Shown one piece after another: positions 3,641 through 64,000 of a stretch of 64,000 nucleotides of DNA. The DNA is from Siphonodentalium dalli (taxonomy: Eukaryota > Mollusca > Scaphopoda > Gadilida > Siphonodentaliidae): assembly GCA_032622095.1 (NCBI GenBank), contig CP136064.1, positions 262,797,863 through 262,861,862 of the forward strand, in the 5' to 3' direction. Position 1 is the first letter of the stretch. Each line of letters opens with the position of its first letter. The translations under genes were made by a program, and so were the position numbers. The notes under the pieces are model-generated. The model was not told the DNA's origin. It did no database searches and saw only the letters and a list, made by a program, of their open reading frames with translations.

Positions 3641-3766
3641 CTGGGGATAAGATTTTCGTCAACGTGACTTAACCATAAACGGAATATTAACCCTGTTTAT
3701 ATTAAATGGATTATCCCATACAGTTATCGATATATATATTTTGAGACTTCCGTATATATGTATATA

Positions 3767-4559: not shown

Positions 4560-4845
4560 TATATATATATATGTGTGTGGGTACTTCATGGAATCAAAAA
4601 CGCGTGTACAGATTGAGCTCAAACTTCCTATGTAAGTGTAAAATTCCACCGACACCGCCGTGGTCGCGTTTTGGAGAAGCTCAGATCACCCGTTCTCCAA
4701 ACTCAGTCACAAAAAACGGCACTGCGGTGGTTAAGACATCAACGATCTTTATATTGACCTTATACGGAGGTGTTAACAATCAACGCTCTTTATTGCAATG
4801 GACGTGGCTAAACGACTGACCCCATGCGTCCGAAATGCGTTATCT

Positions 4846-5246
4846 TGGAATCGGGTGGAGCTATCGACTTGAAATTTGCTATGTGAATGTATCTTGCCCC
4901 GGATACAAATATTATCCGGTCGCCGAGTCCGTGCGACGCCCGTACAGCGCGTGCGCAGACGAGATCTCGGAAACGGGTGGAGCTATCGACTTGAAATTTG
5001 GTATGTGAATGTATCTTGCCCCGGGTACGAATTTTATCGGGTCGCCGAGCCCGTGTGACGCCCGTACAGCGCGTGCGCAGACGAGATCTAGGAAACGGGT
5101 GGAGCTATCGACTTGAAATTTGCTATGTGAATGTATCTTGCCCCGGATACGAATTTTATCGGGTCGCCGAGCCCGTGCGACGCAAGCTTCGCGCATGCGC
5201 AGACCAGATCTCGGAAACGGGTGGAGCTATCAACTTGAAATTTGGT
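4846..5246 (+). repeat. 122-bp tandem repeat inside the outer Helitron
   Basis: About 3.3 copies of a unit of about 122 bp containing CTATCGACTTGAAATTTG and CCCCGGATAC. The GAAATTTG anchor recurs near 4871, 4993, 5114 and 5237. It lies near the 3' end of the Helitron at 3727-5320, the place where non-autonomous Helitrons often carry short tandem arrays. Confidence 0.8.
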
Positions 5247-5691
5247 TAAATTAAAAAAATGTCATGTTTCTGAAACAAAGCCATGAGACGAATGCCGCCA
5301 GTGGCGGGCCAACCTGCTAGTAAAATATATATTAGAATGGTCTAGTATTCATTTGGGGATGTAAAGGATAAACATATATGCACAGACGACAACAAGACCG
5401 TGTGATAATATAAGTGCAGACTACATATTCATTGACGGGAGATATTTAGATAATAAGTTCAACATGGTTGTTTGTTGAACTTATCTGTTGAACTGATCAT
5501 CTGAACATTTTAAGGGAACTATTAGTCAATGAAATTTAGTATAGAAAGTGTTAAACTATTTGAATCGGCAGTTAACAAAGAACCCGATTTAGACAGCATA
5601 GCGCTGGTATGATACATTTTGTATCTGAACCATGAACTTTCTTTCTTATTCAATGTGCGGAGACGGCTAGGCCTGCCATATGAGTGATAAC

Positions 5692-21700: not shown

Positions 21701-24700
21701 CATCTTGAATACAGATGCACTTTTTTTGGTTGTAATTATATGGCAATCTATATGTTTAAACCTGTTGCAAATGTTTGTCATCAAATTCAACTATTTTCTG
21801 GCTAACACTTGGCTTGAATTACAAAATCGATATTTGGTAAAATTTCATAGCATATTTATGAATTCACATTTTGACGACATTTTGTAGGAATAAGACCCAA
21901 TGTATGACATATTATCATGTTCAAATGGTTAGGTATTCAAATTTATTTAAAATTAAGTTGCTATTAGCCACCGATTTCAAACAACCGTGAATGTTTTAAG
22001 AGACATGTGTGAAAATTCATCATTTCCCCGAACTTCGGTTGCCATTTTGGCGGCCATCTTGGTTAAATGTGGTCAATTTTTCTGTCAAAGTGAAGCCTGT
22101 TATCATAGTATCACAACAGTAGAGAAATATTATACTTCCTACCATAAATTCACTACTAGCTATTAATCAAACTGATTCAGTGCCTACTCTGAAATGTTGG
22201 ATGGCGGCCATTTTGATGACGTCATAAATCCACCCAGTCGCGACCCCCAGGTGTCTAACATTTGTTTTCTGGTGCCCCAGATATCAAGCAACATCATGAG
22301 CATAGTGGCTATATTTCTTCACAAAATGCACACGGGAGCCAAAAAATGGACATAAGAGCCTCTACTATACATGCTATATTATACATGTGTCATTTGTTAG
22401 CAGTTATAACGTTTCCCGTCAGATCTTCAAACGTTCCCAGGTTTGAACTAGTGTAATATTACGCGTGTAAACATTATAGTAAAGATTCATCGAATGATCA
22501 ACAGCTGCTCGGGTCTTTGTATTGCACCAGACCCTATATCAGTAGGGGAGTATGGAAGGGTGGTGCGAAGTGGCGCGGAAAACTCTCGAGATATGACATA
22601 ATATTCTGATCACAGGTTTATTACGCCCTCTGTGGTCGTGCATTCATGAATCCAATTTATTTTTTATTACATATTAGATCATGACATGACTCTCTACTCT
22701 GGATAACGGGCGTTAGTGTAACATAGTTACCTGTGAACGGGCGTTAGTGTAACATAGTTACCTGTGAACGGGCGTTAGTGTAACATAGTTACATGTGAAC
22801 GGGCGTTAGTGTAACATAGTTACCTGTGAACGGGCGTTAGTGTAACATAGTTACATGATAACGGGCGTTAGTGTAACATAGTTACCTGTGAACGGGCGTT
22901 AGTGTAACATAGTTACCTGTGAACGGGCGTTAGTGTAACATAGTTACCTGTGAACGGGCGTTAGTGTACCATAGTTACCTGTGAACGGGCGTTAGTGTAA
23001 CATAGTTACCTGTGAACGGGCGTTAGTGTAACATAGTTACCTGTGAACGGGCGTTAGTGTAACATAGTTACCTGTGAACGGGCGTTAGTGTAACATAGTT
23101 ACCTGTGAACGGGCGTTAGTGTAACATAGTTACCTGTGAACGGGCGTTAGTGTAACATAGTTACTTGTGAACGGGCGTTAGTGTAACATAGTTACCTGAT
23201 AACGGGCGTTAGTGTAACATAGTTACCTGATAACGGGCGTTAGTGTAACATAGTTACATGTGAACGGGCGTTAGTGTAACATAGTTACCTGTGAACGGGC
23301 GTTAGTGTAACATAGTTACCTGTGAACGGGCGTTAGTGTAACATAGTTACATGTGAACGGGCGTTAGTGTAACATAGTTACCTGTGAACGGGCGTTAGTG
23401 TAACATAGTTACCTGTGAACGGGCGTTAGTGTAACATAGTTACCTGTGAACGGGCGTTAGTGTAACATAGTTACCTGATAACGGGCGTTAGTGTAACATA
23501 GTTACCTGTGAACGGGCGTTAGTGTAACATAGTTACCTGATAACGGGCGTTAGTGTAACATAGTTACCTGTGAACGGGCGTTAGTGTAACATAGTTACCT
23601 GTGAACGGGCGTTAGTGTAACATAGTTACTTGTGAACGGGCGTTAGTGTAACATAGTTACCTGATAACGGGCGTTAGTGTAACATAGTTACCTGATAACG
23701 GGCGTTAGTGTAACATAGTTACATGTGAACGGGCGTTAGTGTAACATAGTTACCTGTGAACGGGCGTTAGTGTAACATAGTTACCTGTGAACGGGCGTTA
23801 GTGTAACATAGTTACATGTGAACGGGCGTTAGTGTAACATAGTTACCTGTGAACGGGCGTTAGTGTAACATAGTTACCTGTGAACGGGCGTTAGTGTAAC
23901 ATAGTTACCTGTGAACGGGCGTTAGTGTAACATAGTTACCTGTGAACGGGCGTTAGTGTAACATAGTTACCTGATAACGGGCGTTAGTGTAACATATTTA
24001 CCCGTGAACGGGCGTTAGTGTAACATAGTTACCTGTGAACGGGCGTTAGTGTAACATAGTTACCTGTGAACGGGCGTTAGTGTAACATAGTTACCTGTGA
24101 ACGGGCGTTAGTGTAACATAGTTACCTGATAACGGGCGTTAGTGTAACATAGTTACCTGATAACTGGCGTTAGTGTAACATAGTTACCTGTGAACGGGCG
24201 TTAGTGTAACATAGTTACCTGATAACGGGCGTTAGTGTAACATAGTTACCTGATAACGGGCGTTAGTGTAACATAGTTACCTGTGAACGGGCGTTAGTGT
24301 AACATAGTTACCTGTGAACGGGCGTTAGTGTAACATAGTTACATGTGAACGGGCGTTAGTGTAACATAGTTACCTGTGAACGGGCGTTAGTCGGAGTAGA
24401 GATCCATGTCATGATCTAATTATATATATGTGCCTAATAATTAACGCCCATCGGGTGTATACTGGTGGGCAAATTTTAGATCGATGTGTGTCTGTGGACG
24501 TTTTATAAATAGATAATCGGTTTTTCCGGTTTTGACAATTCGCAGTAGTATAGGTCCCTATTCGCGGAGTTCCCCTAAAATTGTCAAAATATGTTGATTT
24601 TAATGAGGGAACGGTGCGTATATTTCAATTGATACGTATTTTAAACAAATAACGACACGATCATCATAATAGTGGTTTGTTCTATCAATCATATCATCAT

Positions 24701-27759: not shown

Positions 27760-29115
27760 AATTCGCTGAGTGTACTGCTGCGATGATGATATCCACGACC
27801 TAACCACCTCGGTAAAAAGGCTCGGTTACGGGGACACCCTTTATATACCATAAATGGATATTCGCTGAGTGTACTGCTGCGATGATGATATCCACGACCT
27901 AACCACCTCGGCTACTGGGACACCCTTTATATACCCGGCTACATGGACACCCTTTATATACCCGGCTACGGGGACACCCTTTATATACCCGGCTACGGGG
28001 ACACCCTTTATATACCCGACAGGCAATTCTTCAAGGATTGTCCACTTATAAATGGACAATCGGTACCTAAAATGGTCATTAATAAATGGACAATCCAACC
28101 ACGCGTGGCACGCGAGCTTGGGATTGTCCACTAAATGAAGACATGTTTTGTTAATCCTGAATGAAGGGCAATAACTCTATAAATAATGTTAATTTGCTAA
28201 ATAACGGTGATTTGTATGAGAAGAAGTGTTTTTGACGAAATAACGGAGAGATTTGAAGAAGAGTTTTTGACGAAATAACGGAAATGTTCGGAAATATTCG
28301 GCTACGGGGACACCATTTATATACCCGGCTACGGGGACACCCTTTATATACCCGGCAACGGGGACACCCTTTATATACCCGGCTACGGGGACACCCTTTA
28401 TATACCCGGCTACGGGGACACCCTTTATATACCCGGTTACGGGGACACCATTTATATACCCGGCTATGGGGACACCATTTATATACCCGGCTACCGGGAC
28501 ACCCTTTATATACCGGTCTACGGGGACACCCTTTTTATACCGTAAATCCTAACCACCTCGGCTACGGGGACACCCTTTATATACCCGGCTACGGGGACAC
28601 CCTTTATATATCCGTATACGGGGACACCCTTTATATACCCGGCTACGGGGACATCCTTTATATATCCGGCTACGGGGACATCCTTTATATATCCGGCTAC
28701 GGGGACACCCTTTTTATACCGTCGTAAATCCTAACCACCTCGGCTACGGGGACACCCTTTATATACCGGCTACGGGGACGCCCTTTCTATATCCGTATAT
28801 GGGGGCACCCTTTATATACCCGGCTACGGGGACACGTTTTATATACCCGGCTACGGGGACACCCTTTATATACCCGGCTACGGGGACACCCTTTATATAC
28901 CCGGCTACGGGGACACCCTTTATATACACGGCTACGGGGACACCCTTTATATACCGTAAATCCTAACCACCTCGGCTACGGGGACACCCTTTATATTCCC
29001 GGCTACGGGGACACCCTTTATATACCGTAAATCCTTACCATATCGGCTACGGGGACACCCTTTATATACCCGGCTACGGAGACACCCTTTATATACCGTA
29101 AATGGATATTCGCTG
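27760..29115 (+). repeat. 27-bp minisatellite array with interspersed spacers
   Basis: The unit is CGGCTACGGGGACACCCTTT plus ATATACC. Because 27 is divisible by three and the unit lacks stops in most frames, several frames stay open on both strands (9-residue repeats such as GDTLYIPGY on + and IKGVPVAGY on -). These ORFs are a by-product, not proteins. Sub-blocks are separated by CCTAACCACCTCGG junctions and by TAAATGGATATTCGCTGA, which occurs at both edges (27,852 and 29,099). A non-repeat island at 28,020-28,300 contains a palindrome (GATTGTCCA...TGGACAATC). Confidence 0.93.
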
Positions 29116-33327: not shown

Positions 33328-35826
33328 TTATTGAGTTTGTTTGCACGGAAGTGGCAACAGTTTCTCCTCCTTCTGCGGTCTAATACATTCATACAGTCGC
33401 TGCCAAAACATATGCTCCCCGAATCCTTCAGTGTATGTAATGTAAGTATCAAGCTCTCTGTGTTCCTTCATCTCCATGGGAATAAGCGACTCTGGAACGA
33501 AGCTGTATTCCACCAGAATAACGACGTTTCTATCAGAGTATATACCTTCCATTTTCGCCATGTTGAATTCATATCTGCACCACGAGCTCCGCACGTAGTC
33601 ACGTGATAAAATGACGACTGTACGTCTGCTATTATTAATAGCATTTAAGATGTTGGATGCAATTGCTTCGCCCGGCATAAAATCTCTCTGATGTAGACAC
33701 AATTTCAAACCGCGATCTTCCTCTAGAATTGGGATAATTTTACGGAAAATGAATTGATAATCCTCTGCTGCGTACGATATAAACACATCCCATTTGTACT
33801 CGTGTAAAGCCAGATTATCATAATCGTAATATTTCGACCGGAACAGATTGTACAAATACTGAAGTTTTAACCTCTCTTTATAAATCATCCCAATTAGAAT
33901 AGCGATAATTGCCAATGTGTTACATATTACACCAAACGCGATTATCAATGAGAAGGTGGCACAATTTAATTCCAGAGCGAGCAGTATGTTACCGATATCA
34001 GATTGTACAGTGGTTCCGTTCGGTAAGGTGCACTCAACAATGTGGTCATATGAAACATTTACACGTGTGTTTGTAAGCCAGTGAATGTAGTCAATGTTTT
34101 TGCACGAGCACTCCGGGGAATTCCCTGTAATGTCCAATCGAAACCCTGAACCAAACATTACCAGGGTTCTCCTGACAGACGCGGGTATTGTACTGATTCT
34201 GTTCCGTTTTAAACTGATGAACTGCAAACTCTTCATATGTGATATTTCTATGTTGATTTCGGTGATCGTATTGCCATTAAGAAGAATGGTTTTCATCTTT
34301 GTTTGATTAATGAAGATGTCATTATGTACGTCTCGTATATTGTTCACGCCAAGGTCAATCATCTCCAAATATCTCAATTCACTGAAAATGGCGCGGTGTT
34401 CAGGTCTCGACAAGACTATCCCCATCAAGTTATGACTGAGGTGTAGCTTTTTCAATCGTTTGCCGGCGTCGAAGAAACTAACTGACACACTACTGCATTG
34501 GTTTCCAGACAAATCGAGCATCGAGAGTGTCTCCATTGGCTGCAGGGAAACCCAATGTAATGCACCATTGTAACTATAATCGTAAATCTCCAGTGTTGGA
34601 ATAACACCGTAGGCAAAGTCTAGATAATCACGCTTCATTAGAGATCTGCTTACATCTAAATATATTAGAGATTTCAAAGATGATAATTGCGCATAGGCGG
34701 CTTGTGATGGGAGTAATCGGTTATAGCTCATGAAAAGATACTGGAGACCTTTCGGTAATAATTCTGGAAGCCCCGTCTCTACCGCCTCGATCGCGTTTGC
34801 ACCTATGTCAATGGAGCGCAAAGTCGTGTTTGTCATCCAAGATACGTGTTGTTTGCCGAGCATCACGCCTACGTCATAACGTCCAGTTATTTTGCTTACT
34901 TGTAGCAATACCAGCGTGGTCGACCCCCGAAATGGATAGAACGATGTTGCTAACACGTCCAATCCCAACCCTGGGTTGCGAGAAATATCCAAATGGCCGA
35001 CAGTGCGCACATGTGCAAATGTGGCGGGATGAATGGATTGAATGTTGCAATCACTAAGAGTGATGTTTCTGAGGTTAGGAATCGATTTGAAGAAATCCCG
35101 ATTGAGACGGTTTATTTGACAGAAGCCATAAGAATATCCCATCTTCAATGTCGTAAGATTAAAGAGGTTAACGGTGTCGGAGCTGAACGTGGCATTACTG
35201 AGTCCGTCTATCATCAGTTCTTCTAAAGATGTGAGTTTACCCAATGAATCGAGAGGGTAATGGTAAGATGGGTCCATGAATTGTATGTTACGACTCATAT
35301 ACAGAGTCTTTAGATTCACCAGGTTGATAAACAATTTTTCTGTGTAAGTCGATTGTGTCATTTTCAAATGATTCCCGGTTAAATCTAGTTCTATGAGTTC
35401 CATTAGACCATCAAATGCCAGAGGCTCCAATGTATCTATTCTGTTTTTTGACAAATCAAGTATGAGCAACACAGATGCACGCGTGAACACGTGATTAAGG
35501 ATAACCTCCAAATGGTTATGACTGAGATCGAGGGACAGACAGCCAGAATAGAATTCCGGGATCTCGGTAAATCCTTCCGATGGACACTCACATATCCATC
35601 CTGTTAACGTGAAGACGTCGCCTCTTCTCATTTGACAATTGCCAGCTGGCCTAATCATACTGGACCAATCACTGCTGCCACGAAGGGTCACATGTTGAGA
35701 ATCAATCACGCTCGTGAGAAAAACTGCATACAGATAAACCAATAACATCTCCATCGTGTTGTAAACGCACAGCAAAAGGTACTGAAAGGACATAAGCAAA
35801 AAATAATAATCATAGGATGGTCTCAT
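33328..35826 (-). CDS. Toll-like receptor, single-exon, 832 aa
   Basis: Pattern-recognition receptor signalling through TIR adaptors at the plasma or endosomal membrane. The hydrophobic N-terminus (residues 1-40) contains M25/M27, so the true start may be 24 or 26 codons in; an in-frame stop lies 51 nt upstream of the first ATG. A Cys-rich N-terminal cap (C64, C79, C81, C96) is followed by about 17-20 leucine-rich repeats (about 97-560; clear LDLSxNxL at 98-106 and 123-131). LRRCT has the CxC...C...C pattern (C573, C575, C599, C622), i.e. a single cysteine cluster, vertebrate-like type. A transmembrane helix spans about 624-649 and the TIR about 677-815, with box 1 WDVFISYAAED, a BB loop RDFMPGE carrying the key proline (P718) and box 3 FW (807-808). 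An AATAAA overlaps the stop codon. There is no intron, frameshift or missing TIR residue, so it looks functional. Invertebrate TLRs are often intronless and clustered. Confidence 0.97.
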   Translation of the reverse strand: MRPSYDYYFLLMSFQYLLLCVYNTMEMLLVYLYAVFLTSVIDSQHVTLRGSSDWSSMIRPAGNCQMRRGDVFTLTGWICECPSEGFTEIPEFYSGCLSLDLSHNHLEVILNHVFTRASVLLILDLSKNRIDTLEPLAFDGLMELIELDLTGNHLKMTQSTYTEKLFINLVNLKTLYMSRNIQFMDPSYHYPLDSLGKLTSLEELMIDGLSNATFSSDTVNLFNLTTLKMGYSYGFCQINRLNRDFFKSIPNLRNITLSDCNIQSIHPATFAHVRTVGHLDISRNPGLGLDVLATSFYPFRGSTTLVLLQVSKITGRYDVGVMLGKQHVSWMTNTTLRSIDIGANAIEAVETGLPELLPKGLQYLFMSYNRLLPSQAAYAQLSSLKSLIYLDVSRSLMKRDYLDFAYGVIPTLEIYDYSYNGALHWVSLQPMETLSMLDLSGNQCSSVSVSFFDAGKRLKKLHLSHNLMGIVLSRPEHRAIFSELRYLEMIDLGVNNIRDVHNDIFINQTKMKTILLNGNTITEINIEISHMKSLQFISLKRNRISTIPASVRRTLVMFGSGFRLDITGNSPECSCKNIDYIHWLTNTRVNVSYDHIVECTLPNGTTVQSDIGNILLALELNCATFSLIIAFGVICNTLAIIAILIGMIYKERLKLQYLYNLFRSKYYDYDNLALHEYKWDVFISYAAEDYQFIFRKIIPILEEDRGLKLCLHQRDFMPGEAIASNILNAINNSRRTVVILSRDYVRSSWCRYEFNMAKMEGIYSDRNVVILVEYSFVPESLIPMEMKEHRELDTYITYTEGFGEHMFWQRLYECIRPQKEEKLLPLPCKQTQ

Positions 35827-48765: not shown

Positions 48766-49647
48766 ATATTATACTTTCCTAATGCACAGAGACTGTAGAA
48801 GTGCCGTGTTATCGAAACCTGAACTCTAGACCAAAATTAACTCGGTATTAGTAGTTCACGCGTAAATATCAACATGTTATCACTGAAAATCAAGCCACGT
48901 GGACGCAATTTCTTTGTTTTTCGTGGCGTATAAAATATGAAACGCATTCTGAAGACAAACACTGACTATTAATTATACCCGTGTTATTCTTCAGTAAAAT
49001 AGCTGAAAATTATCCCGATAGGGGTTGATAATTGGGAGCTGTGGCCTCGTAATCAACACGGGTGCGTGTTACGGTTCTATTTCAAACCAATCATGGCTGT
49101 GACGGTTCTGTACATGAGATTTATTCGAACGATTTCTGCACTTTGGTCCGAAAATCGTCTTGTGTATCTGACATTTTAAACCAGATAATGACTGTAGCTT
49201 ATGTAATTTGCATAATATAGAATAGGTATATTTAGAAATAACACAATAAATACCTAATACGGGAGATTTAGTGACATTAATTGGCAGAAATAAAATATTG
49301 AAAGTCCCGATGAGTATAGTATCATAATCATGCCCGCCTATATAAATGACCAATGGTAATATAACTCTACTCTCAGGAGAATATAAGATGTTATATTCAT
49401 TTACTTAATCTGGGCATTATTGAAAGATCCAGGTGTGACAATATTTCAATGCCAGCGCCATCACATTTCCTCCTCTGAAGTCCGCCTGAGGGACATAAAC
49501 ACATGTTTATGAAATCACGTTCAACTAAATCATTGATAGGTTATGACGTGATTGGGTGGTGGGTGGACTTGGGGAGGGGGTGCTTAATTTGTGTCTATCC
49601 CCAACTTTGGTCAAAATGCTCAACGGTTACAAATTTCTTATCTTACA

Positions 49648-49779
49648 CTGTGTAGGAACTTTTACATAGGAAGTCGTTCTATCACCGGTATTGTGATGGT
49701 TCTTAACTGATTTGTTTACGGTTTCTTATGATTAAAAATTTTCATTTTCGGGACAAAATAACGCATAATTATATATATA
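49648..49779 (+). repeat. 135-bp direct repeat, copy 2, ending at the Helitron stack
   Basis: Aligned with 48,631-48,765. It ends ATAATTATATATATA directly against CTAG of the first Helitron. Confidence 0.7.
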
Positions 49780-50575
49780 CTAGCAGGTTAGCCCGCCACT
49801 GGCGGCAATCGTCACAAACATGACAATTTTTAATTGTTTTAATTAATTTTTGTAATTAATTTTTGTAATTAATTTTTTAATTTAATTTTTCAATGAGTTA
49901 ATTGTGCCTTTTCAATTTAATGGTTTTTTTAATTAATTTTTGTATTTAATTTTTGTTTTTCAATGAGTTAATTGTGCCTTTTTAATTTTTTAATTATTTT
50001 TTTTGTTTTTCAATTTTACTCGATTTGACCTTGAATTGATCATTTTCAAGGTCAAGGTCAGGTCGGGGTCACAATTTAACCCGCCCATGACACTTCCCGT
50101 ACGTAGCAAGTTTGAGCTCAATCGGTTCGAGTCTATAAAGGACACACACATATATATCATTTGTGGGTACCCGTTTCAAGGTGAAGATCACCTCGGATGG
50201 AAAAACTGACCCGATGAAAATCTCCCCTGTTCCTAGGAAGCCCTAAGAACGAAATTCAGTACGATATTTCGCCTCGAGACGGTCAATGGAGCCGTATTTA
50301 TACTCGTCGTGTATATAGACGCTCTGTATCAACGACACTGATGATACGAACGCTCTTTAACTATCAACGCGATTAACACCACAGTGCCGTTTTTGTGACT
50401 GAGGGTGGAGAACGGGTGCTCGGAGCTTCTCCAAAACGACGCGACGACAATTTCCGTGGTTTTTTACCTTAGATGGGAAGTTTGAGCCCAATCGGTCCAG
50501 CCGCTTTCGAGTCTATAAAGGACAAATATACACATATATTTATATATATACGTAGTTCTCAAAATATATAGTAGA
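49780..50575 (-). mobile_element. Non-autonomous Helitron 1 of the stack
   Basis: On the minus strand the head TCTACTATATATTTTGAGAA starts at 50,575. The tail CCGCC-AGT-GGCGG hairpin precedes CTAG at 49,783-49,780, and the host T follows. It is 796 bp, same family as the outer Helitron at 3727-5320. It contains blocks such as GTGACTGAGGGTGGAGAACG that are complementary to 4690-4720. No coding. Confidence 0.87.
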
Positions 50576-51681
50576 CTAGCAGGTTAGCCCGCCACTGGCG
50601 TGCTTGGTCAGAAACATGACAATGTTTTATGTTTTGTTTGTGTTTTTCAATGAGTTAATATTGGGTTTTTAAATATTTTACCCGATTTGACCTTGAATTT
50701 ATCATTTTCAAGGTCAAGGTCATGTCGGGGTCACAATATATAATTTGTGGGTACCAGTTTGAAGGTTAAGACTGACCCGATGAAAAATTCCCCGTTCCTA
50801 GGAACGACAGACATAAGAATGTTTCACACAATGCGACGTCGACGATCCCCGTGTGTTTTTTACACTTATATACGAAGTTTGAGCTCACCTAGGGCGGAAA
50901 AACTTACCCGATTCGCGTTCTTATGAACACAACACGCTCCGCGTTCTTAGGAACATGTCTATACACGCCCAGACCCAGAAGAGGTATGATTTTTTTAACC
51001 TGCCCGTGGCCATTGAGCAGCCCCTGACAGGAGTTGTCCACCCTTACGAGATGGTCAATAGTCCCCGCAAAGTTAATCCCGTCGTGAACCACATCCTCGC
51101 AAAGAGCGGACAGTCAATTAATCCCGCCGTGAACGCTATCACCAACGCGACGTAATTTTTTTTGGTATCATGTGTTGCGTTCTAAAAATAGGAAAGCACT
51201 TGTTCCCGTATACGTTTGCGTAAATACGAAATTGTGAGTGTTGGTTTGTAACCGGGATTTCTGAGAAGCATTATGCCTATAACTACCCCCCCCCCTAAGC
51301 CCTGACCTAAGTGTCATACATACTATAACAATGATGTTGTAAGAGTACTATGGCATCCAATAATTCTCCCCGCATAGGAAACCACTCAATGTTCCCGTAT
51401 TTCTCTCTGCAGATGCTAATAACGTTGAATGGTAAACAGACGCTCTTTATAGCGATGCGTCAAAAACAAACGCTCATTAAATAATCACTTGATTAACCCA
51501 CGCCGTGCCTTTGCGGTGATTTGGGAGTGGATAAAGGGTGCTCAGAGCTTCTCCAAAACCCGACAATTACGGTGTTCGTGTGTTTTACCCTTATATACGA
51601 AATTTGAGGTCGATGGGTGCAGTCGTTTTCGATTCTATAAAGTACACACACATACGGAAGTCTCAAAATATATAGTATAGA
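50576..51681 (-). mobile_element. Non-autonomous Helitron 2 of the stack, carrying a GC-rich ORF
   Basis: On the minus strand the head TCTATACTATATATTTTGAG starts at 51,681 and the tail ends with CTAG at 50,579-50,576, abutting the head of Helitron 1 with no intervening base. It has the same tail hairpin family (CGCC-AGT-GGCG). It is 1,106 bp. A GC-rich ORF on the opposite strand (50,955-51,155) looks foreign to the AT-rich element and may be captured sequence. Confidence 0.87.
50955..51155 (+). CDS. Unrecognised 66-codon ORF inside a Helitron, possible captured gene fragment
   Basis: ATG-started, ends TAA just before a T-run. It is distinctly GC-richer than the surrounding element and has balanced, protein-like composition (RYDFFNLPVAIEQ, VVHPYEMVN, two NPxVN repeats: VNPVVNHI and INPAVNAI). 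The repeated NP-(V/A)-VN pattern suggests a real peptide once under selection. I cannot assign a family. Helitrons capture host or viral exons, so a captured fragment is the simplest reading; expression is unproven. Confidence 0.4.
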   Translation: MSIHAQTQKRYDFFNLPVAIEQPLTGVVHPYEMVNSPRKVNPVVNHILAKSGQSINPAVNAITNAT

Positions 51682-52645
51682 CTAGCTGAGTACCCGTCCT
51701 GACGGGGAGAGTCGTTGTGTTGTTGTTTTTTCACCAACACCCCAAACAATGGTGGAAATCGGCCCAGCGGATACCGAGATACAGGTTCAAGGTCATTTGA
51801 AAGGTCAAGATCACGCTGGGTGGGACGGAATTTATTGGCATCCCCATCTACAACAATACCCCAAAAATGGTGGAAATCGGCAGAGCGGATCCCGAGATAC
51901 GGTTTCAATGTAATTTGAAAGGTCAAGGTCATTTTGAAAATGTTTGGCTACCCGAACTATCCCTACCTACGAAATTTCATCCCGATCGTCCCATCGCATT
52001 CCGAGATACAGAGTCAAGGTCATTTGAAGGTCAAGGTCACGCCGCACGGGCATCTGGGTGGGACGAAATGCATTGGCATTCCCATCTACACCAACACCCC
52101 AAAAATGGTGAAAATCAGCCCAGCGGATACCGAGATAAAGGTTCAAGATCATTTGAAAGATCAAGGTCACGCTACTACCCGTTGAACATATTTGGCTACC
52201 CGAACCATCCCTACCTACGAAATTTTATCCCGATCATCCCATCAGATCCGGAGATAGAGAGTCAAGGTCATTTGAAGGCCAAGATCACGTCGCACGGGCA
52301 TCTCGCTGGGACGAAATTTATTGGCATCCCCATCTACACCAACACCCCGAAAATGGTGGTAATCGGCCCAGCGGATACCTAGATACAGGTTCAATGTCAT
52401 TTGAAAGGTCAAGGTCACGCCGCACGGGCATCCGAGCGTAACGAAATGGCTCGGCGCCTCACACTGCCCCTACATACCAAATTGGTCCAAATCGGCCCAG
52501 CAGGAGCCGAGATACAGGTTGAAGGTCACCGGTTTGAAGGTCAAGGTCACTCCGCACGGGCAAACGGATAAGCCCATGTTGTCCTCTTTTCGAGTCCATC
52601 GCGGCCACACAGACACACACACACACTCCTCAAATATATAATAGA
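51682..52645 (-). mobile_element. Non-autonomous Helitron 3 of the stack, with eight TCAAGGTCA motifs
   Basis: On the minus strand the head TCTATTATATATTTGAGGAG starts at 52,645 after host A. The tail is CCCGTC-AG-GACGGG, seven bases and CTAG at 51,685-51,682, abutting the head of Helitron 2. It is 964 bp, same family as the inner Helitron at 3767-4559. The body consists of about 249-bp modules (TGGCTACCCGAAC at 51,942 and 52,191). ORFs running through it in both orientations are repeat-driven. The 4,683-bp tandem array begins 54 bp inside its 3' end. Confidence 0.87.
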
Positions 52646-52990
52646 TATCTTCACAGTGTATAAACCGTACAAACATTAAATCGGAAGTTGTTTTCGAAAA
52701 GACAAAAAATGCTATTTTTAGAACGTAAATGTGACAGAAATGTCACAACAACACCACAAAATCCAGGTTTCAGACGGACACACGGTTGCACCACTTCTAC
52801 ATACACATTTGCCGATCGTAAGCGAGCTCCATTCGAGCGAAAGACTCTGTTTAATAGATCAAAATGGCCTTTGATCACTTCAGAAAATAATTTTCTCGCA
52901 AAATTTCCCTCTTCAAATGTCATTTTAACACATATCCAGCATCTGTCGGAAATCCCACTATATTGCAACGGAAAGACCGTTATGTGTGTA

Positions 52991-55079
52991 ACATATATGG
53001 ACATGCCCTTGGCTCGATTGTATTCAAAATTTGAACGTAGAGAGTATTTATTTGGACACCCCGCTCTCAGTCTATGTACGCCTAGTTGTTAAAGTTGATG
53101 ATCACTAGTTGCCAAAAATATGTACGCCAAGTTGTGATGGGTTTGTGTGCAAAGACGAACCCGTGAATTAGGTTTCCATATTAGAGATACTCGGTCTACC
53201 GATGGTCATTATTAACCTTCAATCACAAGAGGAAGTTACTGTTCCGCTCCACATCCGTTTTCCGATTCTGGGATAGGGACCCACTCCATCCAAACTGCGT
53301 CAAATGACTATTTTACTCAGTGTTCCTGATCTATCTTTTCATTATCATGATTATAGAAGCATTCCTACTTTTATATACCAACAGCACTGTAAAGTTTCAA
53401 AACAATTCTCCAATAAATGTGGGCTGTAGGGTATGCTGATGGATTGACATTTTAAATCCAAGATGGCTGCAGGTGCCCATGTTTGTTTTAAACAAATTTT
53501 GGGGAACAATGGAGGCTCCCATTTAGAGGTCACGTCGAAGATCCATATGGAGTTCGGTGACGATTTGATGAGAAATGTGACCTGTAAAGTGTGCTAAAGG
53601 ATTTGGTCATACAAAGAGTAAAATCCAAGATGGCCAAAATGGCAGCCATTTATTTTACAAAATTTGGAAAAAATCGAAGGCACCCATCGAGAGGTCTCAA
53701 CGAAGATCCATTTAAAGGTTGGTAATGATCGGATGAGGGATAAGCTCTGCATGGTGTGTTAAAGGATTTAGTGATGCAAAGAGTAAAATGCAAGATGGCT
53801 GCCAGTGGCCATATTTTTCAAAAAAAATCATTCAAATTTGACAGCTCTCCTCGATCCATATACCGAATATTGTTGAAATCGGTCAAAGTTTGTTTTAACA
53901 CATTTGTTTTATTTTATTACAGATTTTTAATAGTCTATTTTTATTTGAAGAGTTAAAGGTACTCAATCCGAAATGTCTATTTCCTTGGCATCGGCGGTAA
54001 AAGATATTTGATCCGAGTCGAGGAACCGACCCATCAAAGCTCAGAGTAATCAGATCTCGATGTTTGAATTCTATTATTTTAATTTTAGGTGGCCCAGTAA
54101 ATAGTCGACGAGAAGACTTCTCTGAACAAATTGCGGATGAAGATGGATAACTCTAAAATCAAGTGACTTTTTTGTGTCAGATATTTGACAATAACATGTT
54201 TTGGGCAATTGTATACTATAGTTGACTGTGATTAACAATATTTTTGGGCAATTACTCGATTCTTATAACTGAAGCGGCATTTGTTTTTAAATTGTTGTTG
54301 TTGGAATCTGATGATATGGGGACCATCGAATCGGATTGAGTACCTTTACGTGAAGAGTTTACATTTATTTGAAGAATATATTATTGTGTTATGTTTTCGA
54401 TTAAATGATTTTTAATAAAACTATTTAAATATGAGCCTTTCCATGCCAGTGTGCAATTATAGATCCTTGGTGAAAACATTTAGCAAGCTGACATTTTTAT
54501 TACCCCTTGGTGTCATTCCTCATTATTAACTGCTGGTGAACTCAACCCCCCTACCAAGAGTTAAGTGCATACATATTACATAATTGAAGCATTCTTAAAA
54601 CCTTTTTGTCCCATTATTTTGAAGAAAAATGACTCTAGGAAAAACATTACAGGGACAGGGAAAATGTGTAAGCATGGCTGCAGAACCAACCACCGCCCCA
54701 CCTAGTGTTCGAAAAACAATTGCAGACCCCACCGTTGACGTATACAAATTCCATCACAGAATACAACATATTTCCTCAACCCCCAAATACAGTTTTGTTA
54801 CATGCGGAGTCGAATAAAAGTAGCTAAGTGTTAATCGGAATACCTTGTTTGATTCAGGCAGAGTCTATACGTTCAATGCCGTGACATGTCGAAGACATAG
54901 TTATGTTTAAGTGGGTCGAAAGGAACATATCATTACTATACGATTCATGTACAACGTCGCAACTGGTATTGTCGTCGTACACAACTTGCCGGACATAGAC
55001 TGAAGAGTGGGGTGTCCAAATAAATACTCTCTACTTTCAAATTGTGAATACACTCGAGCCAAGGGCATGTCCATATATA
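52991..55079. repeat. Inverted 87-bp pair within the unit (also in copies 2 and 3)
   Basis: ATATGGACATGCCCTTGGCT...AGAGTATTTATTTGGACACC (52,991-53,078) is mirrored at 54,993-55,079 with a few substitutions. Both arms are open in the corresponding frame (MDMPLAR.YS.FE.REYLFGHP), but the four differences all change the amino acid, so coding constraint is not supported. They may be terminal repeats of an older 2.1-kb element. Confidence 0.65.
53955..54347. mobile_element. 393-bp MITE with AAAGGTACTCAATCCGA ends (array copy 1)
   Basis: AAAGGTACTCAATCCGA at the left is perfectly mirrored by TCGGATTGAGTACCTTT at the right. The interior is AT-rich and non-coding. Target duplication is unclear. It is repeated at 58,638-59,030 and 63,321-63,713 as part of the tandem units. 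Confidence 0.75.
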
Positions 55080-56418
55080 GTCTGGTCGATAAAAGGTTTG
55101 ACCTAGAAAAAATTTGGACTAAGTTGGTTTTTATTCCATTTTGAAGAGGAATATTTCCTCTACAACATATCCAAAATCCGCTAAAATCCGCTTTGAGCAA
55201 ACTTTTTTACAGAGATTTTAAAAAATGCTCATTTTTCGACCTTGCGAAGTACGTTTTTCTACAATATCCCGCATCGGCGACACCAGGACGCATTAATCCT
55301 CCATCCGATATATACCAGTTTGTGTAAAAGAGTATAGGAGGCGAATAGAGTGACAAGGACAGAAAACAATGCATTCGCGGCGATGAAATGGCTGTCAAAA
55401 TGGCCGCAACTACAATCCATGCTACGATGAAAGCAATATATTGGATAACCCCCTATAAGCGAAAATACACATTTGTAATTTACAAGAATGTTGTTATATA
55501 TCTTTAAAGGCACACATATAATTAAAACAGATCTATCTGAATTATTTATCGATCACTGCTACGCACGTTAACCCAATAATTTACGTTCGGGTTTTCTTAT
55601 TAGAATACATCCAACAGTCGGACCAAAATCAGTTATGTTGGGCATGGAACACACGAAGTAATATTTCGTCACACAGTGCGTGGTAGTTTCCTTTTGGAAT
55701 GGTGATTAATTATTGAATGTAAAGCAGAAACTGAAGTGTCCACCCTATCTGTGTAAATACTAGTTATATTTCCAGAATTTTCAACACTCTCCGTGACAAT
55801 AAACCATACACGTATGTCGTAATGCTGATTATACTGTCAAGAAACACTTATCTCTTCAACAGAATAGTACCCTATCTCACTAGATCGAAGAGACTGTACA
55901 TCGTACATTTTATTTAGTACTTATTTTCATGGTGCTCCCAAACCGGTTTCTTAGTAGTCAATTATGTTCAAATTACTTCAATCGACACTTTACAACATAA
56001 ATATGTACAACGCAATACACACTATTAGTTGTCAGTATCTTGTTGTTTGACATTATGTTACCATTGCCACCCATATACTTGCGGTAAATATCAGGTCATC
56101 AGCGTTTACAGTTATTAGTTCTGCGTTTACCATTCACTCAATGTTGCTATTTATGGTTTTGTATGCAGCAGATATGTGTAACATTAGGGAGAATGGGTAA
56201 ACGCGGCGATGCGGTTGCAGAAAAGGTCGTACGTTTCGCGTATATGTGGCCTTAGTGCATTTAAGTGCACACAATTTCCAGGTATAAAGACAGTCTCTGC
56301 CATAGAGTATGTAGGCAATTTGGGTTATGTTGAGAATTTATTGAAGATAGTCTATTGTAATCCTTTGTATTTTGATAAATTGCGTTCATGGTATACCACC
56401 ATGTATTTGTGTGATAAA

Positions 56419-59400
56419 AACACCCCAAACAATGGTGGAAATCGGCCCAGCGGATACCGAGATACAGGTTCAAGGTCATTTGAAAGGTCAAGATCACGCT
56501 GGGTGGGACGGAATTTATTGGCATCCCCATCTACAACAATACCCCAAAAATGGTGGAAATCGGCAGAGCGGATCCCGAGATACGGTTTCAATGTAATTTG
56601 AAAGGTCAAGGTCATTTTGAAAATGTTTGGCTACCCGAACTATCCCTACCTACGAAATTTCATCCCGATCGTCCCATCGCATTCCGAGATACAGAGTCAA
56701 GGTCATTTGAAGGTCAAGGTCACGCCGCACGGGCATCTGGGTGGGACGAAATGCATTGGCATTCCCATCTACACCAACACCCCAAAAATGGTGAAAATCA
56801 GCCCAGCGGATACCGAGATAAAGGTTCAAGATCATTTGAAAGATCAAGGTCACGCTACTACCCGTTGAACATATTTGGCTACCCGAACCATCCCTACCTA
56901 CGAAATTTTATCCCGATCATCCCATCAGATCCTGAGATAGAGAGTCAAGGTCATTTGAAGGCCAAGATCACGTCGCACGGGCATCTCGCTGGGACGAAAT
57001 TTATTGGCATCCCCATCTACACCAACACCCCGAAAATGGTGGTAATCGGCCCAGCGGATACCTAGATACAGGTTCAATGTCATTTGAAAGGTCAAGGTCA
57101 CGCCGCACGGGCATCCGAGCGTAACGAAATGGCTCGGCGCCTCACACTGCCCCTACATACCAAATTGGTCCAAATCGGCCCAGCAGGAGCCGAGATACAG
57201 GTTGAAGGTCACCGGTTTGAAGGTCAAGGTCACTCCGCACGGGCAAACGGATAAGCCCATGTTGTCCTCTTTTCGAGTCCATCGCGGCCACACAGACACA
57301 CACACACACTCCTCAAATATATAATAGATATCTTCACAGTGTATAAACCGTACAAACATTAAATCGGAAGTTGTTTTCGAAAAGACAAAAAATGCTATTT
57401 TTAGAACGTAAATGTGACAGAAATGTCACAACAACACCACAAAATCCAGGTTTCAGACGGACACACGGTTGCACCACATCTACATACACATTTGCCGATC
57501 GTAAGCGAGCTCCATTCGAGCGAAAGACTCTGTTTAATAGATCAAAATGGCCTTTGATCACTTCAGAAAATAATTTTCTCGCAAAATTTCCCTCTTCAAA
57601 TGTCATTTTAACACATATCCAGCATCTGTCGGAAATCCCACTATATTGCAACGGAAAGACCGTTATGTGTGTAACATATATGGACATGCCCTTGGCTCGA
57701 TTGTATTCAAAATTTGAACGTAGAGAGTATTTATTTGGACACCCCGCTCTCAGTCTATGTACGCCTAGTTGTTAAAGTTGATGATCACTAGTTGCCAAAA
57801 ATATGTACGCCAAGTTGTGATGGGTTTGTGTGCAAAGACGAACCCGTGAATTAGGTTTCCATATTAGAGATACTCGGTCTACCGATGGTCATTATTAACC
57901 TTCAATCACAAGAGGAAGTTACTGTTCCGCTCCACATCCGTTTTCCGATTCTGGGATAGGGACCCACTCCATCCAAACTGCGTCAAATGACTATTTTACT
58001 CAGTGTTCCTGATCTATCTTTTCATTATCATGATTATAGAAGCATTCCTACTTTTATATACCAACAGCACTGTAAAGTTTCAAAACAATTCTCCAATAAA
58101 TGTGGGCTGTAGGGTATGCTGATGGATTGACATTTTAAATCCAAGATGGCTGCAGGTGCCCATGTTTGTTTTAAACAAATTTTGGGGAACAATGGAGGCT
58201 CCCATTTAGAGGTCACGTCGAAGATCCATATGGAGTTCGGTGACGATTTGATGAGAAATGTGACCTGTAAAGTGTGCTAAAGGATTTGGTCATACAAAGA
58301 GTAAAATCCAAGATGGCCAAAATGGCAGCCATTTATTTTACAAAATTTGGAAAAAATCGAAGGCACCCATCGAGAGGTCTCAACGAAGATCCATTTAAAG
58401 GTTGGTAATGATCGGATGAGGGATAAGCTCTGCATGGTGTGTTAAAGGATTTAGTGATGCAAAGAGTAAAATGCAAGATGGCTGCCAGTGGCCATATTTT
58501 TCAAAAAAAATCATTCAAATTTGACAGCTCTCCTCGATCCATATACCGAATATTGTTGAAATCGGTCAAAGTTTGTTTTAACACATTTGTTTTATTTTAT
58601 TACAGATTTTTAATAGTCTATTTTTATTTGAAGAGTTAAAGGTACTCAATCCGAAATGTCTATTTCCTTGGCATCGGCGGTAAAAGATATTTGATCCGAG
58701 TCGAGGAACCGACCCATCAAAGCTCAGAGTAATCAGATCTCGATGTTTGAATTCTATTATTTTAATTTTAGGTGGCCCAGTAAATAGTCGACGAGAAGAC
58801 TTCTCTGAACAAATTGCGGATGAAGATGGATAACTCTAAAATCAAGTGACTTTTTTGTGTCAGATATTTGACAATAACATGTTTTGGGCAATTGTATACT
58901 ATAGTTGACTGTGATTAACAATATTTTTGGGCAATTACTCGATTCTTATAACTGAAGCGGCATTTGTTTTTAAATTGTTGTTGTTGGAATCTGATGATAT
59001 GGGGACCATCGAATCGGATTGAGTACCTTTACGTGAAGAGTTTACATTTATTTGAAGAATATATTATTGTGTTATGTTTTCGATTAAATGATTTTTAATA
59101 AAACTATTTAAATATGAGCCTTTCCATGCCAGTGTGCAATTATAGATCCTTGGTGAAAACATTTAGCAAGCTGACATTTTTATTACCCCTTGGTGTCATT
59201 CCTCATTATTAACTGCTGGTGAACTCAACCCCCCTACCAAGAGTTAAGTGCATACATATTACATAATTGAAGCATTCTTAAAACCTTTTTGTCCCATTAT
59301 TTTGAAGAAAAATGACTCTAGGAAAAACATTACAGGGACAGGGAAAATGTGTAAGCATGGCTGCAGAACCAACCACCGCCCCACCTAGTGTTCGAAAAAC

Positions 59401-61101
59401 AATTGCAGACCCCACCGTTGACGTATACAAATTCCATCACAGAATACAACATATTTCCTCAACCCCCAAATACAGTTTTGTTACATGCGGAGTCGAATAA
59501 AAGTAGCTAAGTGTTAATCGGAATACCTTGTTTGATTCAGGCAGAGTCTATACGTTCAATGCCGTGACATGTCGAAGACATAGTTATGTTTAAGTGGGTC
59601 GAAAGGAACATATCATTACTATACGATTCATGTACAACGTCGCAACTGGTATTGTCGTCGTACACAACTTGCCGGACATAGACTGAAGAGTGGGGTGTCC
59701 AAATAAATACTCTCTACTTTCAAATTGTGAATACACTCGAGCCAAGGGCATGTCCATATATAGTCTGGTCGATAAAAGGTTTGACCTAGAAAAAATTTGG
59801 ACTAAGTTGGTTTTTATTCCATTTTGAAGAGGAATATTTCCTCTACAACATATCCAAAATCCGCTAAAATCCGCTTTGAGCAAACTTTTTTACAGAGATT
59901 TTAAAAAATGCTCATTTTTCGACCTTGCGAAGTACGTTTTTCTACAATATCCCGCATCGGCGACACCAGGACGCATTAATCCTCCATCCGATATATACCA
60001 GTTTGTGTAAAAGAGTATAGGAGGCGAATAGAGTGACAAGGACAGAAAACAATGCATTCGCGGCGATGAAATGGCTGTCAAAATGGCCGCAACTACAATC
60101 CATGCTACGATGAAAGCAATATATTGGATAACCCCCTATAAGCGAAAATACACATTTGTAATTTACAAGAATGTTGTTATATATCTTTAAAGGCACACAT
60201 ATAATTAAAACAGATCTATCTGAATGATTTATCGATCACTGCTACGCACGTTAACCCAATAATTTACGTTCGGGTTTTCTTATTAGAATACATCCAACAG
60301 TCGGACCAAAATCAGTTATGTTGGGCATGGAACACACGAAGTAATATTTCGTCACACAGTGCGTGGTAGTTTCCTTTTGGAATGGTGATTAATTATTGAA
60401 TGTAAAGCAGAAACTGAAGTGTCCACCCTATCTGTGTAAATACTAGTTATATTTCCAGAATTTTCAACACTCTCCGTGACAATAAACCATACACGTATGT
60501 CGTAATGCTGATTATACTGTCAAGAAACACTTATCTCTTCAACAGAATAGTACCCTATCTCACTAGATCGAAGAGACTGTACATCGTACATTTTATTTAG
60601 TACTTATTTTCATGGTGCTCCCAAACCGGTTTCTTAGTAGTCAATTATGTTCAAATTACTTCAATCGACACTTTACAACATAAATATGTACAACGCAATA
60701 CACACTATTAGTTGTCAGTATCTTGTTGTTTGACATTATGTTACCATTGCCACCCATATACTTGCGGTAAATATCAGGTCATAAGCGTTTACAGTTATTA
60801 GTTCTGCGTTTACCATTCACTCAATGTTGCTATTTATGGTTTTGTATGCAGCAGATATGTGTAACATTAGGGAGAATGGGTAAACGCGGCGATGCGGTTG
60901 CAGAAAAGGTCGTACGTTTCGCGTATATGTGGCCTTAGTGCATTTAAGTGCACACAATTTCCAGGTATAAAGACAGTCTCTGCCATAGAGTATGTAGGCA
61001 ATTTGGGTTATGTTGAGAATTTATTGAAGATAGTCTATTGTAATCCTTTGTATTTTGATAAATTGCGTTCATGGTATACCACCATGTATTTGTGTGATAA
61101 A
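56419..61101 (+). repeat. 4,683-bp tandem unit, copy 2
   Basis: Same length as copy 1 with no indel. I found four substitutions against copy 1: 52,250 G vs 56,933 T; 52,795 T vs 57,478 A; 55,543 T vs 60,226 G; 56,100 C vs 60,783 A. More may exist. The Helitron portion (56,419-57,328) lacks the CTAG/hairpin terminus and is preceded directly by the end of unit 1. Confidence 0.95.
58638..59030. mobile_element. 393-bp MITE (array copy 2)
   Basis: Copy of 53,955-54,347 carried by the second tandem unit; same ends. Confidence 0.75.
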
Positions 61102-64000
61102 AACACCCCAAACAATGGTGGAAATCGGCCCAGCGGATACCGAGATACAGGTTCAAGGTCATTTGAAAGGTCAAGATCACGCTGGGTGGGACGGAATTTA
61201 TTGGCATCCCCATCTACAACAATACCCCAAAAATGGTGGAAATCGGCAGAGCGGATCCCGAGATACGGTTTCAATGTAATTTGAAAGGTCAAGGTCATTT
61301 TGAAAATGTTTGGCTACCCGAACTATCCCTACCTACGAAATTTCATCCCGATCGTCCCATCGCATTCCGAGATACAGAGTCAAGGTCATTTGAAGGTCAA
61401 GGTCACGCCGCACGGGCATCTGGGTGGGACGAAATGCATTGGCATTCCCATCTACACCAACACCCCAAAAATGGTGAAAATCAGCCCAGCGGATACCGAG
61501 ATAATGGTTCAAGATCATTTGAAAGATCAAGGTCACGCTACTACCCGTTGAACATATTTGGCTACCCGAACCATCCCTACCTACGAAATTTTATCCCGAT
61601 CATCCCATCTGATCCTGAGATAGAGAGTCAAGGTCATTTGAAGGCCAAGATCACGTCGCACGGGCATCTCGCTGGGACGAAATTTATTGGCATCCCCATC
61701 TACACCAACACCCCGAAAATGGTGGTAATCGGCCCAGCGGATACCTAGATACAGGTTCAATGTCATTTGAAAGATCAAGGTCACGCCGCACGGGCATCCG
61801 AGCGTAACGAAATGGCTCGGCGCCTCACACTGCCCCTACATACCAAATTGGTCCAAATCGGCCCAGCAGGAGCCGAGATACAGGTTGAAGGTCACCGGTT
61901 TGAAGGTCAAGGTCACTCCGCACGGGCAAACGGATAAGTCCATGTTGTCCTCTTTTCGAGTCCATCGCGGCCACACAGACACACACACACACTCCTCAAA
62001 TATATAATAGATATCTTCACAGTGTATAAACCGTACAAACATTAAATCGGAAGTTGTTTTCGAAAAGAAAAAAAATGCTATTTTTAGAACGTAAATGTGA
62101 CAGAAATGTCACAACAACACCACAAAATCCAGGTTTCAGACGGACACACGGTTGCACCACATCTACATACACATTTGCCGATCGTAAGCGAGCTCCATTC
62201 GAGCGAAAGACTCTGTTTAATAGATCAAAATGGCCTTTGATCACTTCAGAAAATAATTTTCTCGCAAAATTTCCCTCTTCAAATGTCATTTTAACACATA
62301 TCCAGCATCTGTCGGAAATCCCACTATATTGCAACGGAAAGACCGTTATGTGTGTAACATATATGGACATGCCCTTGGCTCGATTGTATTCAAAATTTGA
62401 ACGTAGAGAGTATTTATTTGGACACCCCGCTCTCAGTCTATGTACGCCTAGTTGTTAAAGTTGATGATCACTAGTTGCCAAAAATATGTACGCCAAGTTG
62501 TGATGGGTTTGTGTGCAAAGACGAACCCGTGAATTAGGTTTCCATATTAGAGATACTCGGTCTACCGATGGTCATTATTAACCTTCAATCACAAGAGGAA
62601 GTTACTGTTCCGCTCCACATCCGTTTTCCGATTCTGGGATAGGGACCCACTCCATCCAAACTGCGTCAAATGACTATTTTACTCAGTGTTCCTGATCTAT
62701 CTTTTCATTATCATGATTATAGAAGCATTCCTACTTTTATATACCAACAGCACTGTAAAGTTTCAAAACAATTCTCCAATAAATGTGGGCTGTAGGGTAT
62801 GCTGATGGATTGACATTTTAAATCCAAGATGGCTGCAGGTGCCCATGTTTGTTTTAAACAAATTTTGGGGAACAATGGAGGCTCCCATTTAGAGGTCACG
62901 TCGAAGATCCATATGGAGTTCGGTGACGATTTGATGAGAAATGTGACCTGTAAAGTGTGCTAAAGGATTTGGTCATACAAAGAGTAAAATCCAAGATGGC
63001 CAAAATGGCAGCCATTTATTTTACAAAATTTGGAAAAAATCGAAGGCACCCATCGAGAGGTCTCAACGAAGATCCATTTAAAGGTTGGTAATGATCGGAT
63101 GAGGGATAAGCTCTGCATGGTGTGTTAAAGGATTTAGTGATGCAAAGAGTAAAATGCAAGATGGCTGCCAGTGGCCATATTTTTCAAAAAAAATCATTCA
63201 AATTTGACAGCTCTCCTCGATCCATATACCGAATATTGTTGAAATCGGTCAAAGTTTGTTTTAACACATTTGTTTTATTTTATTACAGATTTTTAATAGT
63301 CTATTTTTATTTGAAGAGTTAAAGGTACTCAATCCGAAATGTCTATTTCCTTGGCATCGGCGGTAAAAGATATTTGATCCGAGTCGAGGAACCGACCCAT
63401 CAAAGCTCAGAGTAATCAGATCTCGATGTTTGAATTCTATTATTTTAATTTTAGGTGGCCCAGTAAATAGTCGACGAGAAGACTTCTCTGAACAAATTGC
63501 GGATGAAGATGGATAACTCTAAAATCAAGTGACTTTTTTGTGTCAGATATTTGACAATAACATGTTTTGGGCAATTGTATACTATAGTTGACTGTGATTA
63601 ACAATATTTTTGGGCAATTACTCGATTCTTATAACTGAAGCGGCATTTGTTTTTAAATTGTTGTTGTTGGAATCTGATGATATGGGGACCATCGAATCGG
63701 ATTGAGTACCTTTACGTGAAGAGTTTACATTTATTTGAAGAATATATTATTGTGTTATGTTTTCGATTAAATGATTTTTAATAAAACTATTTAAATATGA
63801 GCCTTTCCATGCCAGTGTGCAATTATAGATCCTTGGTGAAAACATTTAGCAAGCTGACATTTTTATTACCCCTTGGTGTCATTCCTCATTGTTAACTGCT
63901 GGTGAACTCAACCCCCCTACCAAGAGTTAAGTGCATACATATTACATAATTGAAGCATTCTTAAAACCTTTTTGTCCCATTATTTTGAAGAAAAATGACT
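61102..64000 (+). repeat. 4,683-bp tandem unit, copy 3 (cut by window edge)
   Basis: 2,899 bp visible. It shares the T at 61,616 and the A in CCACATC with copy 2, so it is closer to copy 2, but has its own changes (for example 61,610 T, GATAATGG at 61,502, GAAAGATCAAGG near 61,770, AAGTCC at 61,937, AAAGAAAAAA at 62,065 and CATTGTTAAC near 63,888). Confidence 0.95.
63321..63713. mobile_element. 393-bp MITE (array copy 3)
   Basis: Copy of 53,955-54,347 carried by the third tandem unit; same ends. Confidence 0.75.

Follow-up and report, generated by a model that had tools for sequence, protein, structure and literature searches.

A head-to-tail stack of three Helitrons in Siphonodentalium dalli and the landing places of Helitrons in its genome

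How do three Helitrons come to lie head-to-tail in a genome with no base between them, and can the order of their arrival be read from the joints? The question is raised by a locus at 49780..52645 of the window, i.e., the whole stretch of 64,000 nucleotides of Siphonodentalium dalli DNA that was analyzed. There have been few direct tests of Helitron site choice. The earlier note on this locus proposed that each newcomer landed on the A/T formed by a host A and the first T of the resident element (here and below, the slash marks the insertion point or joint), which would give the order Hel1, Hel2, Hel3. We consider it probable that three unlike, non-autonomous Helitrons make up the stack, each brought in by its own transposition and joined seamlessly to the end of another, and that resident heads are a very frequent landing place genome-wide. 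The order of arrival is a separate matter.

Architecture of the stack

On the minus strand, the stack reads, from 5' to 3', Hel3, Hel2, Hel1, and all three elements have canonical ends, TC...CTAG, in agreement with the 5' TC and 3' CTRR pattern. Helitron 3 (Hel3, 51682..52645, minus strand, 964 bp) starts with TCTATTATATATTTGAGG and ends with a hairpin and CTAG; its body contains 129/248-bp repeats and its tail is of type D. Helitron 2 (Hel2, 50576..51681, minus strand, 1,106 bp) starts with TCTATACTATATATTTTGAG and ends with GGCGGGCTAACCTGCTAG, and Helitron 1 (Hel1, 49780..50575, minus strand, 796 bp) starts with TCTACTATATATTTTGAG and ends with GGCGGGCTAACCTGCTAG as well. Hel1 and Hel2 have their ends in common and part of the body, whereas Hel3 differs in its tail and its repeat body. 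There are no ORFs of at least 200 aa in the stack, so that all three elements look non-autonomous, and Rfam gave no matches in window 49000-54000. Each of the three tails contains a short hairpin that ends 10-13 nt before the 3' end and is statistically weak (shuffle z -1.7 to -2.0).

The CTAG of Hel3 touches the TC of Hel2 at 51681..51682 (...TACTCAGCTAG/TCTATACTATATATTTTGAG), and the CTAG of Hel2 touches the TC of Hel1 at 50575..50576 (...TAACCTGCTAG/TCTACTATATATTTTGAG), both on the minus strand, without a spacer and with 0 added bases. Hel3 is preceded by a host A at 52646 (GAAGATA/TC), the 5' border of the stack, and Hel1 is followed by a host T at 49779 (CTAG/TATATATATAATTATG), the 3' border, after which comes a TATATA-rich host target. 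The outer borders of the stack are accordingly those of a Helitron insertion, i.e., between A and T and without target duplication, and the same A and T borders are found at a single-member locus, L111. The description given in the earlier note, namely three Helitrons stacked head-to-tail with host A and T at the outermost junctions only, is exact in its coordinates and joint letters. Unlike elements that are joined as CTAG/TC with no spacer form the arrangement from which consecutive insertion of adjacent Helitrons is recognized, and this is the arrangement seen here.

The 5' part of the stack is included in a tandem duplication with three units of 4,683 bp each, at 51736..56418, 56419-61101 and 61102-65784 (the last in window numbering; this unit extends beyond the window and is seen in L029). 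The unit consists of the first 910 bp of Hel3 and ~3.8 kb of its 5' flank, and neighboring units differ at 4 and 10 positions. Because the breakpoint at 51736 is inside Hel3, the extra copies lack the Hel3 tail, Hel2 and Hel1, and contain instead 3'-truncated Hel3 copies comprising its first 910 bp (56419..57328 and 61102..62011, both on the minus strand). For the same reason, these copies are silent on the order of arrival and were rejected as informative relatives. They do keep the Hel3 head together with its host A, and we can show that Hel3 was already present before the tandem duplication. A true empty site of the stack locus was not found; the segment 48611-48758 matches the 3' host flank next to the Hel1 end (49631-49779) at 86%, with homology that ends at the insertion point, and was rejected as not clean for this role.

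Resident heads and host sites as landing places

Exact patterns were counted over the 2.23-Gb assembly (nine contigs). The tail GGCGGGCTAACCTGCTAG, of the Hel1/Hel2 type, is present in 10,907 exact copies, and TCTA follows directly in 4,993 of these (46%), against ~2% expected from base composition by a rough estimate. Among the 4,770 exact copies of the head TCTATACTATATATTTTGAGA, 2,462 are preceded by CTAG, 1,820 by A, and 488 by neither. All whole-genome tail and head counts were controlled with reversed patterns, which yielded 0 matches. The excess of CTAG-TC junctions over chance, which the earlier note suggested counting, is therefore large, and the joints are not due to chance.

Some joints belong to arrays of a single element. 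L139 (C1:5785600-5789400) is a head-to-tail array of three identical 1,125-bp units, and L140 (C1:49031400-49036600) contains units of 1,301, 1,118, 1,301 and 1,302 bp, of which the ~1.3-kb units are near-identical. Such multimers or arrays imply that the raw joint counts exceed the number of independent events. They also show that head-to-tail arrays made from one Helitron, either as a rolling-circle multimer after missed termination or by tandem duplication, do exist in this genome, and termination bypass is described for bats and silkworm in the available text of PMC4067079. For the stack itself, however, this origin is refuted by the units, which are unlike in length and body, Hel3 differing in the tail too, where near-identical units would be expected; we regard it as extremely improbable.

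Individual tails were also examined in context. We surveyed 80 of 100 listed tails, taken by position, all from C1 1.45-24.4 Mb, with the 20 tails in two local arrays excluded. Of these, 42 lie exactly at another head, 13 in or near a head, and 25 at host DNA (21 distinct sites); a TC start follows in 0 of the 25 host-touching tails, a class that is itself defined by having no head. The 55 stacked joints represent 32 tail-by-head combinations, with a mild subtype association (permutation p 0.007). In a Hel2-biased sample of 115 tails, 71 abut exact heads, 12 split heads (at +4) and 3 the interior of a head, 1 lies two bases short, and 28 are others, a few of which resemble heads by eye. The Hel3 family behaves similarly: among 20 places that reach the tail (window excluded, judged by eye), the tail meets an exact head in 14, a head in 1 where the tail itself is mutated, the interior of a head in 1, and host DNA in 4, two of the latter being duplicates of one site, i.e., contact with a head or head interior in 16 of 20. 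In L130, a Hel3-family tail classed as host by eye, the next bases are TCTA.

The split heads are of particular relevance for the side on which newcomers land. In this form, the tail is followed by TACTATATATTTT, i.e., a head minus its first four bases. There are 12 such joints, in which the tail is followed by TA[CT]TATAT, and in 5 of them (L004, L020, L022, L026 and L028) the TCTA or TCTTA of the resident is found upstream of the newcomer or newcomers. These newcomers are inside split resident heads, which implies that resident heads serve as targets. In the other 7 of the 12, the first bases of the resident were not found upstream; at some of these joints, the nearest upstream head comes directly after CTAG, as expected of a moved composite. 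Newcomers at heads are also seen in a set of 32 Hel2-family copies, which is biased to stacks because the search query was the whole stack. The heads of 10 of these copies are interrupted at +4 by a newcomer, and another 10 directly abut the exact tail of an upstream element; a tail lies inside the head in 2 copies and takes a different form in 1, a host A precedes 4, and 5 are ambiguous. On the downstream side, 21 are followed by a head and 7 by host or other sequence, and 4 are without a tail. Thus, two proposals of the earlier note gain support: that resident heads act as targets, from the common mixed joints and the five split heads with an upstream remnant, and that different elements were inserted separately, from joints that are common and mixed in kind.

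Extended heads with extra 5' TCTA or TCTTC units are present in L020, L024, L028, L061, L074 and L093; these could have originated if, in a split head, transposition began from the outer TC.

The host targets have a feature in common with the heads. In 17 of the 21 distinct host sites, the A/T is followed by TATAWA starting at +3 to +7 after the tail, compared with 164 of 9,288 background A/T sites (window 5501-49700), or 130 of 1,576 AT-rich ones. Within heads, the TATAWA core is mostly at +6 or +8; for the +4 site inside TCTATAC heads the core is at +4, and for the 0-site of these heads the TATA core is at +8, beyond the range scored for host targets. A position-specific matrix of the host targets was also tried: TCTATAC heads score poorly in it, with 15% of background A/T sites equal or better, probably because the core offset varies, and it was set aside in favor of the test for a core at an offset. 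The +8 core and the low matrix rank of TCTATAC heads both speak against a simple rule.

A simpler explanation would be that targets are chosen only for being AT-rich or TATA-like, such that heads are struck merely because of their AT-richness. The host targets are indeed AT-rich with a TATAWA core, and Helraiser, according to the accessible part of its description, favors AT-rich target flanks and has an AT-rich left end itself (Grabundzija et al., 2016; PMC4778049). However, with ~8.3 million core sites genome-wide (extrapolated from 44 kb of the window) and 40,000 heads (a generous assumption), less than 1 of 80 insertions would be expected at heads, whereas 55 of 80 are seen, so that the TATA core alone does not account for the preference for heads. 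Moreover, no tail among the 80 is found at an inner A/T step of TATATATTTT. We consequently give little credence to a choice by AT-richness alone.

One host repeat (TATTCTAT..TTA.AATCATGGGTATATA), seen in L016, L018 and L133, was struck at the identical place by different Helitron copies.

Target choice, we infer, makes use of the same recognition as the left end. Under the mechanism we propose, the transposase would select targets by the same rule that defines its own left end, i.e., an A/T shortly upstream of a TATAWA core; a host A together with a resident head would then be a ready target, and each newcomer would supply a fresh head at the same A, making the target self-renewing. By extension, and tentatively, since this larger scheme may well be wrong, the main Helitron target in this genome could be the left end of other Helitrons, with target choice equivalent to left-end recognition and stacks that grow by themselves, and both ends of a resident (A/TC and CTAG/T) may accept newcomers. 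A TATA-core rule common to the target and the donor end has the attraction of being a simple recognition idea.

Probable separate assembly and the order of arrival

The three-part order recurs in a second stack, L030, which lies on another contig between different flanks and is bordered by the canonical A and T. This order suggests that the whole stack, or its Hel2-Hel1 part, might have moved as a composite, with read-through of the inner CTAG ends; L030 is also the nearest relative in the small Hel1 sample, and for 49 of 87 joints in long loci, a sequence elsewhere can be aligned over the joint, with 71-97% identity. Judging from sequence comparison, units may have moved at other loci. For the stack in the window, several observations disfavor such movement. 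The Hel3 bodies of the two stacks are alike at the ends only, whereas the Hel2 copies are 3.3% apart (36 substitutions in 1,090 positions) and the Hel1 copies 5.7% (36/630), i.e., Hel1 is more diverged (Fisher p 0.018). The Hel2 copies of the window and L030 do not group together in a tree of 30 copies, which is weakly resolved, and other Hel1 copies across the genome match with 92-94% identity over 553-639 query bases. The different flanks, the unlike Hel3 bodies, the unequal divergence and the ungrouped Hel2 copies jointly make the two stacks look separately assembled, and composite movement appears improbable here.

If the three elements arrived one by one, in which order did they come? The joints themselves do not tell, because an exact CTAG/TC is identical for head-side (A/T) and tail-side (G/T) joining. 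A strict A/T rule, as assumed in the earlier note, places Hel1 first, Hel2 onto the Hel1 head and Hel3 last onto the Hel2 head. Long loci contain 14 distinct heads that stand behind no tail, intact or mutated (sorted by eye). In 13 of them, TC comes after an A of the flanking DNA, and two heads nested in other heads also have an A there (9 further core matches are without a TC start). The exception, in L016 near 8202, is a head that comes after a G inside the body of another element, and the 488 heads with neither an A nor a CTAG directly before them likewise weigh against an exclusive rule. Head-side insertions do occur, given the split heads and the Hel2-family copies described above, and the greater divergence of Hel1 than of Hel2 between the two stacks fits an arrival of Hel1 before Hel2; Hel2 likely landed on Hel1.

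The position of Hel3 in this sequence of events is more problematic. In 723 aligned columns, Hel3 shows 41 differences of its own, spread along the body, against the three relatives fetched, which are 8.5-9.2% away and come from 40 of 1,462 candidates that were scored, such that a closer donor may lie among the rest. The Hel2 end branch is 0.017 (30 copies), or ~18/1,069 as reckoned from the branch length, and that of Hel1 is 0.038 (9 pieces); these private branches set maximum ages and come from unequal samples (30 Hel2 copies, 9 Hel1 pieces, 4 Hel3 pieces). As far as such divergences go, Hel3 looks older than Hel2, which is not expected of an element that landed on Hel2, and Hel3 as the last arrival is doubtful. 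Across the Hel2 family, the terminal branch shows no usable trend with stack position (by eye). The earlier note also suggested looking for relatives of the locus with Hel1 only or Hel1 plus Hel2; none were present among the loci fetched. Of the order that it proposed, the precedence of Hel1 over Hel2 is favored, and the final arrival of Hel3 is not. Taken as a whole, we view the strict A/T order as a real possibility that falls short of probable.

The alternative is joining on the tail side, at the G/T that follows a resident CTAG, in which case Hel2 would have come last, either between Hel3 and Hel1 or behind Hel3. Mechanistically, a transposase that nicks both ends of a resident could allow a newcomer to join either. 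Among the three elements, private divergence is lowest in Hel2, which agrees with this sequence of events, within the limits set by the unequal samples and the upper-bound nature of the branches. A pair of paralogous loci bears directly on this; their host flanks are the same, and they differ by 26/2,078 substitutions. L112 reads host A, X, Y, host T, and L111 reads host A, X, host T, i.e., the upstream member only, against the expectation from a strict A/T order. Either Y joined behind X in L112, or L111 has lost Y through recombination of the two tails, a possibility given that X and Y agree in their last 20 bases. Y in L112 has 8 private differences in 806 columns, more than half the duplication divergence, a difference that is not significant (p 0.33). 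Three other paralog pairs were considered as evidence on order and found uninformative. In maize, too, there are lines with the upstream member only, and insertion at GT is discussed by the authors in the part of the report that is available (PMC2267711); the maize lines thus argue for tail-side joining and against the strict A/T order. On the other side of the ledger, A precedes TC at most host insertions, and tail-side joining is, in our judgment, rather unlikely.

We retain, then, separate transpositions as the probable origin of the stack, with a likely landing of Hel2 on Hel1. If both ends of a resident are receptive, stack order becomes unreadable from the joints, here and in maize alike.

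Relation to known Helitrons and other features of the window

Tandem or adjacent Helitrons were reportedly described in Myotis bats by Pritham and Feschotte in 2007. In the maize r1 region, adjacent head-to-tail Helitrons were found, for which consecutive insertion was inferred and both orders were discussed, according to the available portion of the report (Du et al., 2008; PMC2267711). The maize pair resembles the present stack in that the CTAG of one element touches the TC of the next, a different element, forming a G/T joint; unlike that single pair, with lines that have the upstream member alone, there are here three members, thousands of joints and split heads. Perfect head-to-tail joints, the A/T target and the AT-rich flank are shared with the Helitrons of Myotis bats; as far as the accessible text goes, the bat cases are given as exemplars, whereas here about half of the counted exact heads and tails are in joints (Grabundzija et al., 2016; PMC4778049). 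For fungi, the same limited kind of access to the source gives self-insertions and multiple 5' termini of FoHeli in Fusarium, and three copies in tandem in Metarhizium acridum (PMC5148889). The stacking of three and the extra 5' termini produced by nesting parallel our observations, but those are single cases of non-canonical Helitrons, unlike the elements with canonical TC/CTAG ends described here. Nested maize helitrons likewise become multi-ended elements, with no genome-wide preference for heads given in the available part of PMC3288121, and the accessible portions of PMC7492417, PMC4683698 and PMC3789558 bring nothing further in this respect.

Adjacent head-to-tail Helitrons are thus already known from maize and bats; it is the scale observed here that makes the side and order of addition testable by counting, as seamless joints number in the thousands and there are also split heads and paralogs with a single member. 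In our literature search, we found neither a family for which head-to-tail joints were described as the most frequent setting nor a TATA-core rule, which does not prove that such reports are absent. In the annotation of transposable elements, caution is advisable, because stacks may be merged into false composite families.

The window contains several further features. A nested Helitron pair is present at 3727-5320 on the plus strand, in which a C-type-tailed element (3767-4559) lies within the front part of an A-tailed element. There are tandem arrays at 22705-24391 (31 bp, 54 copies) and 28299-29103 (27 bp, ~25 copies), and on the minus strand, at 33328-35826, an ORF of 832 aa, Toll-like-receptor-like, with LRRs and a TIR domain.
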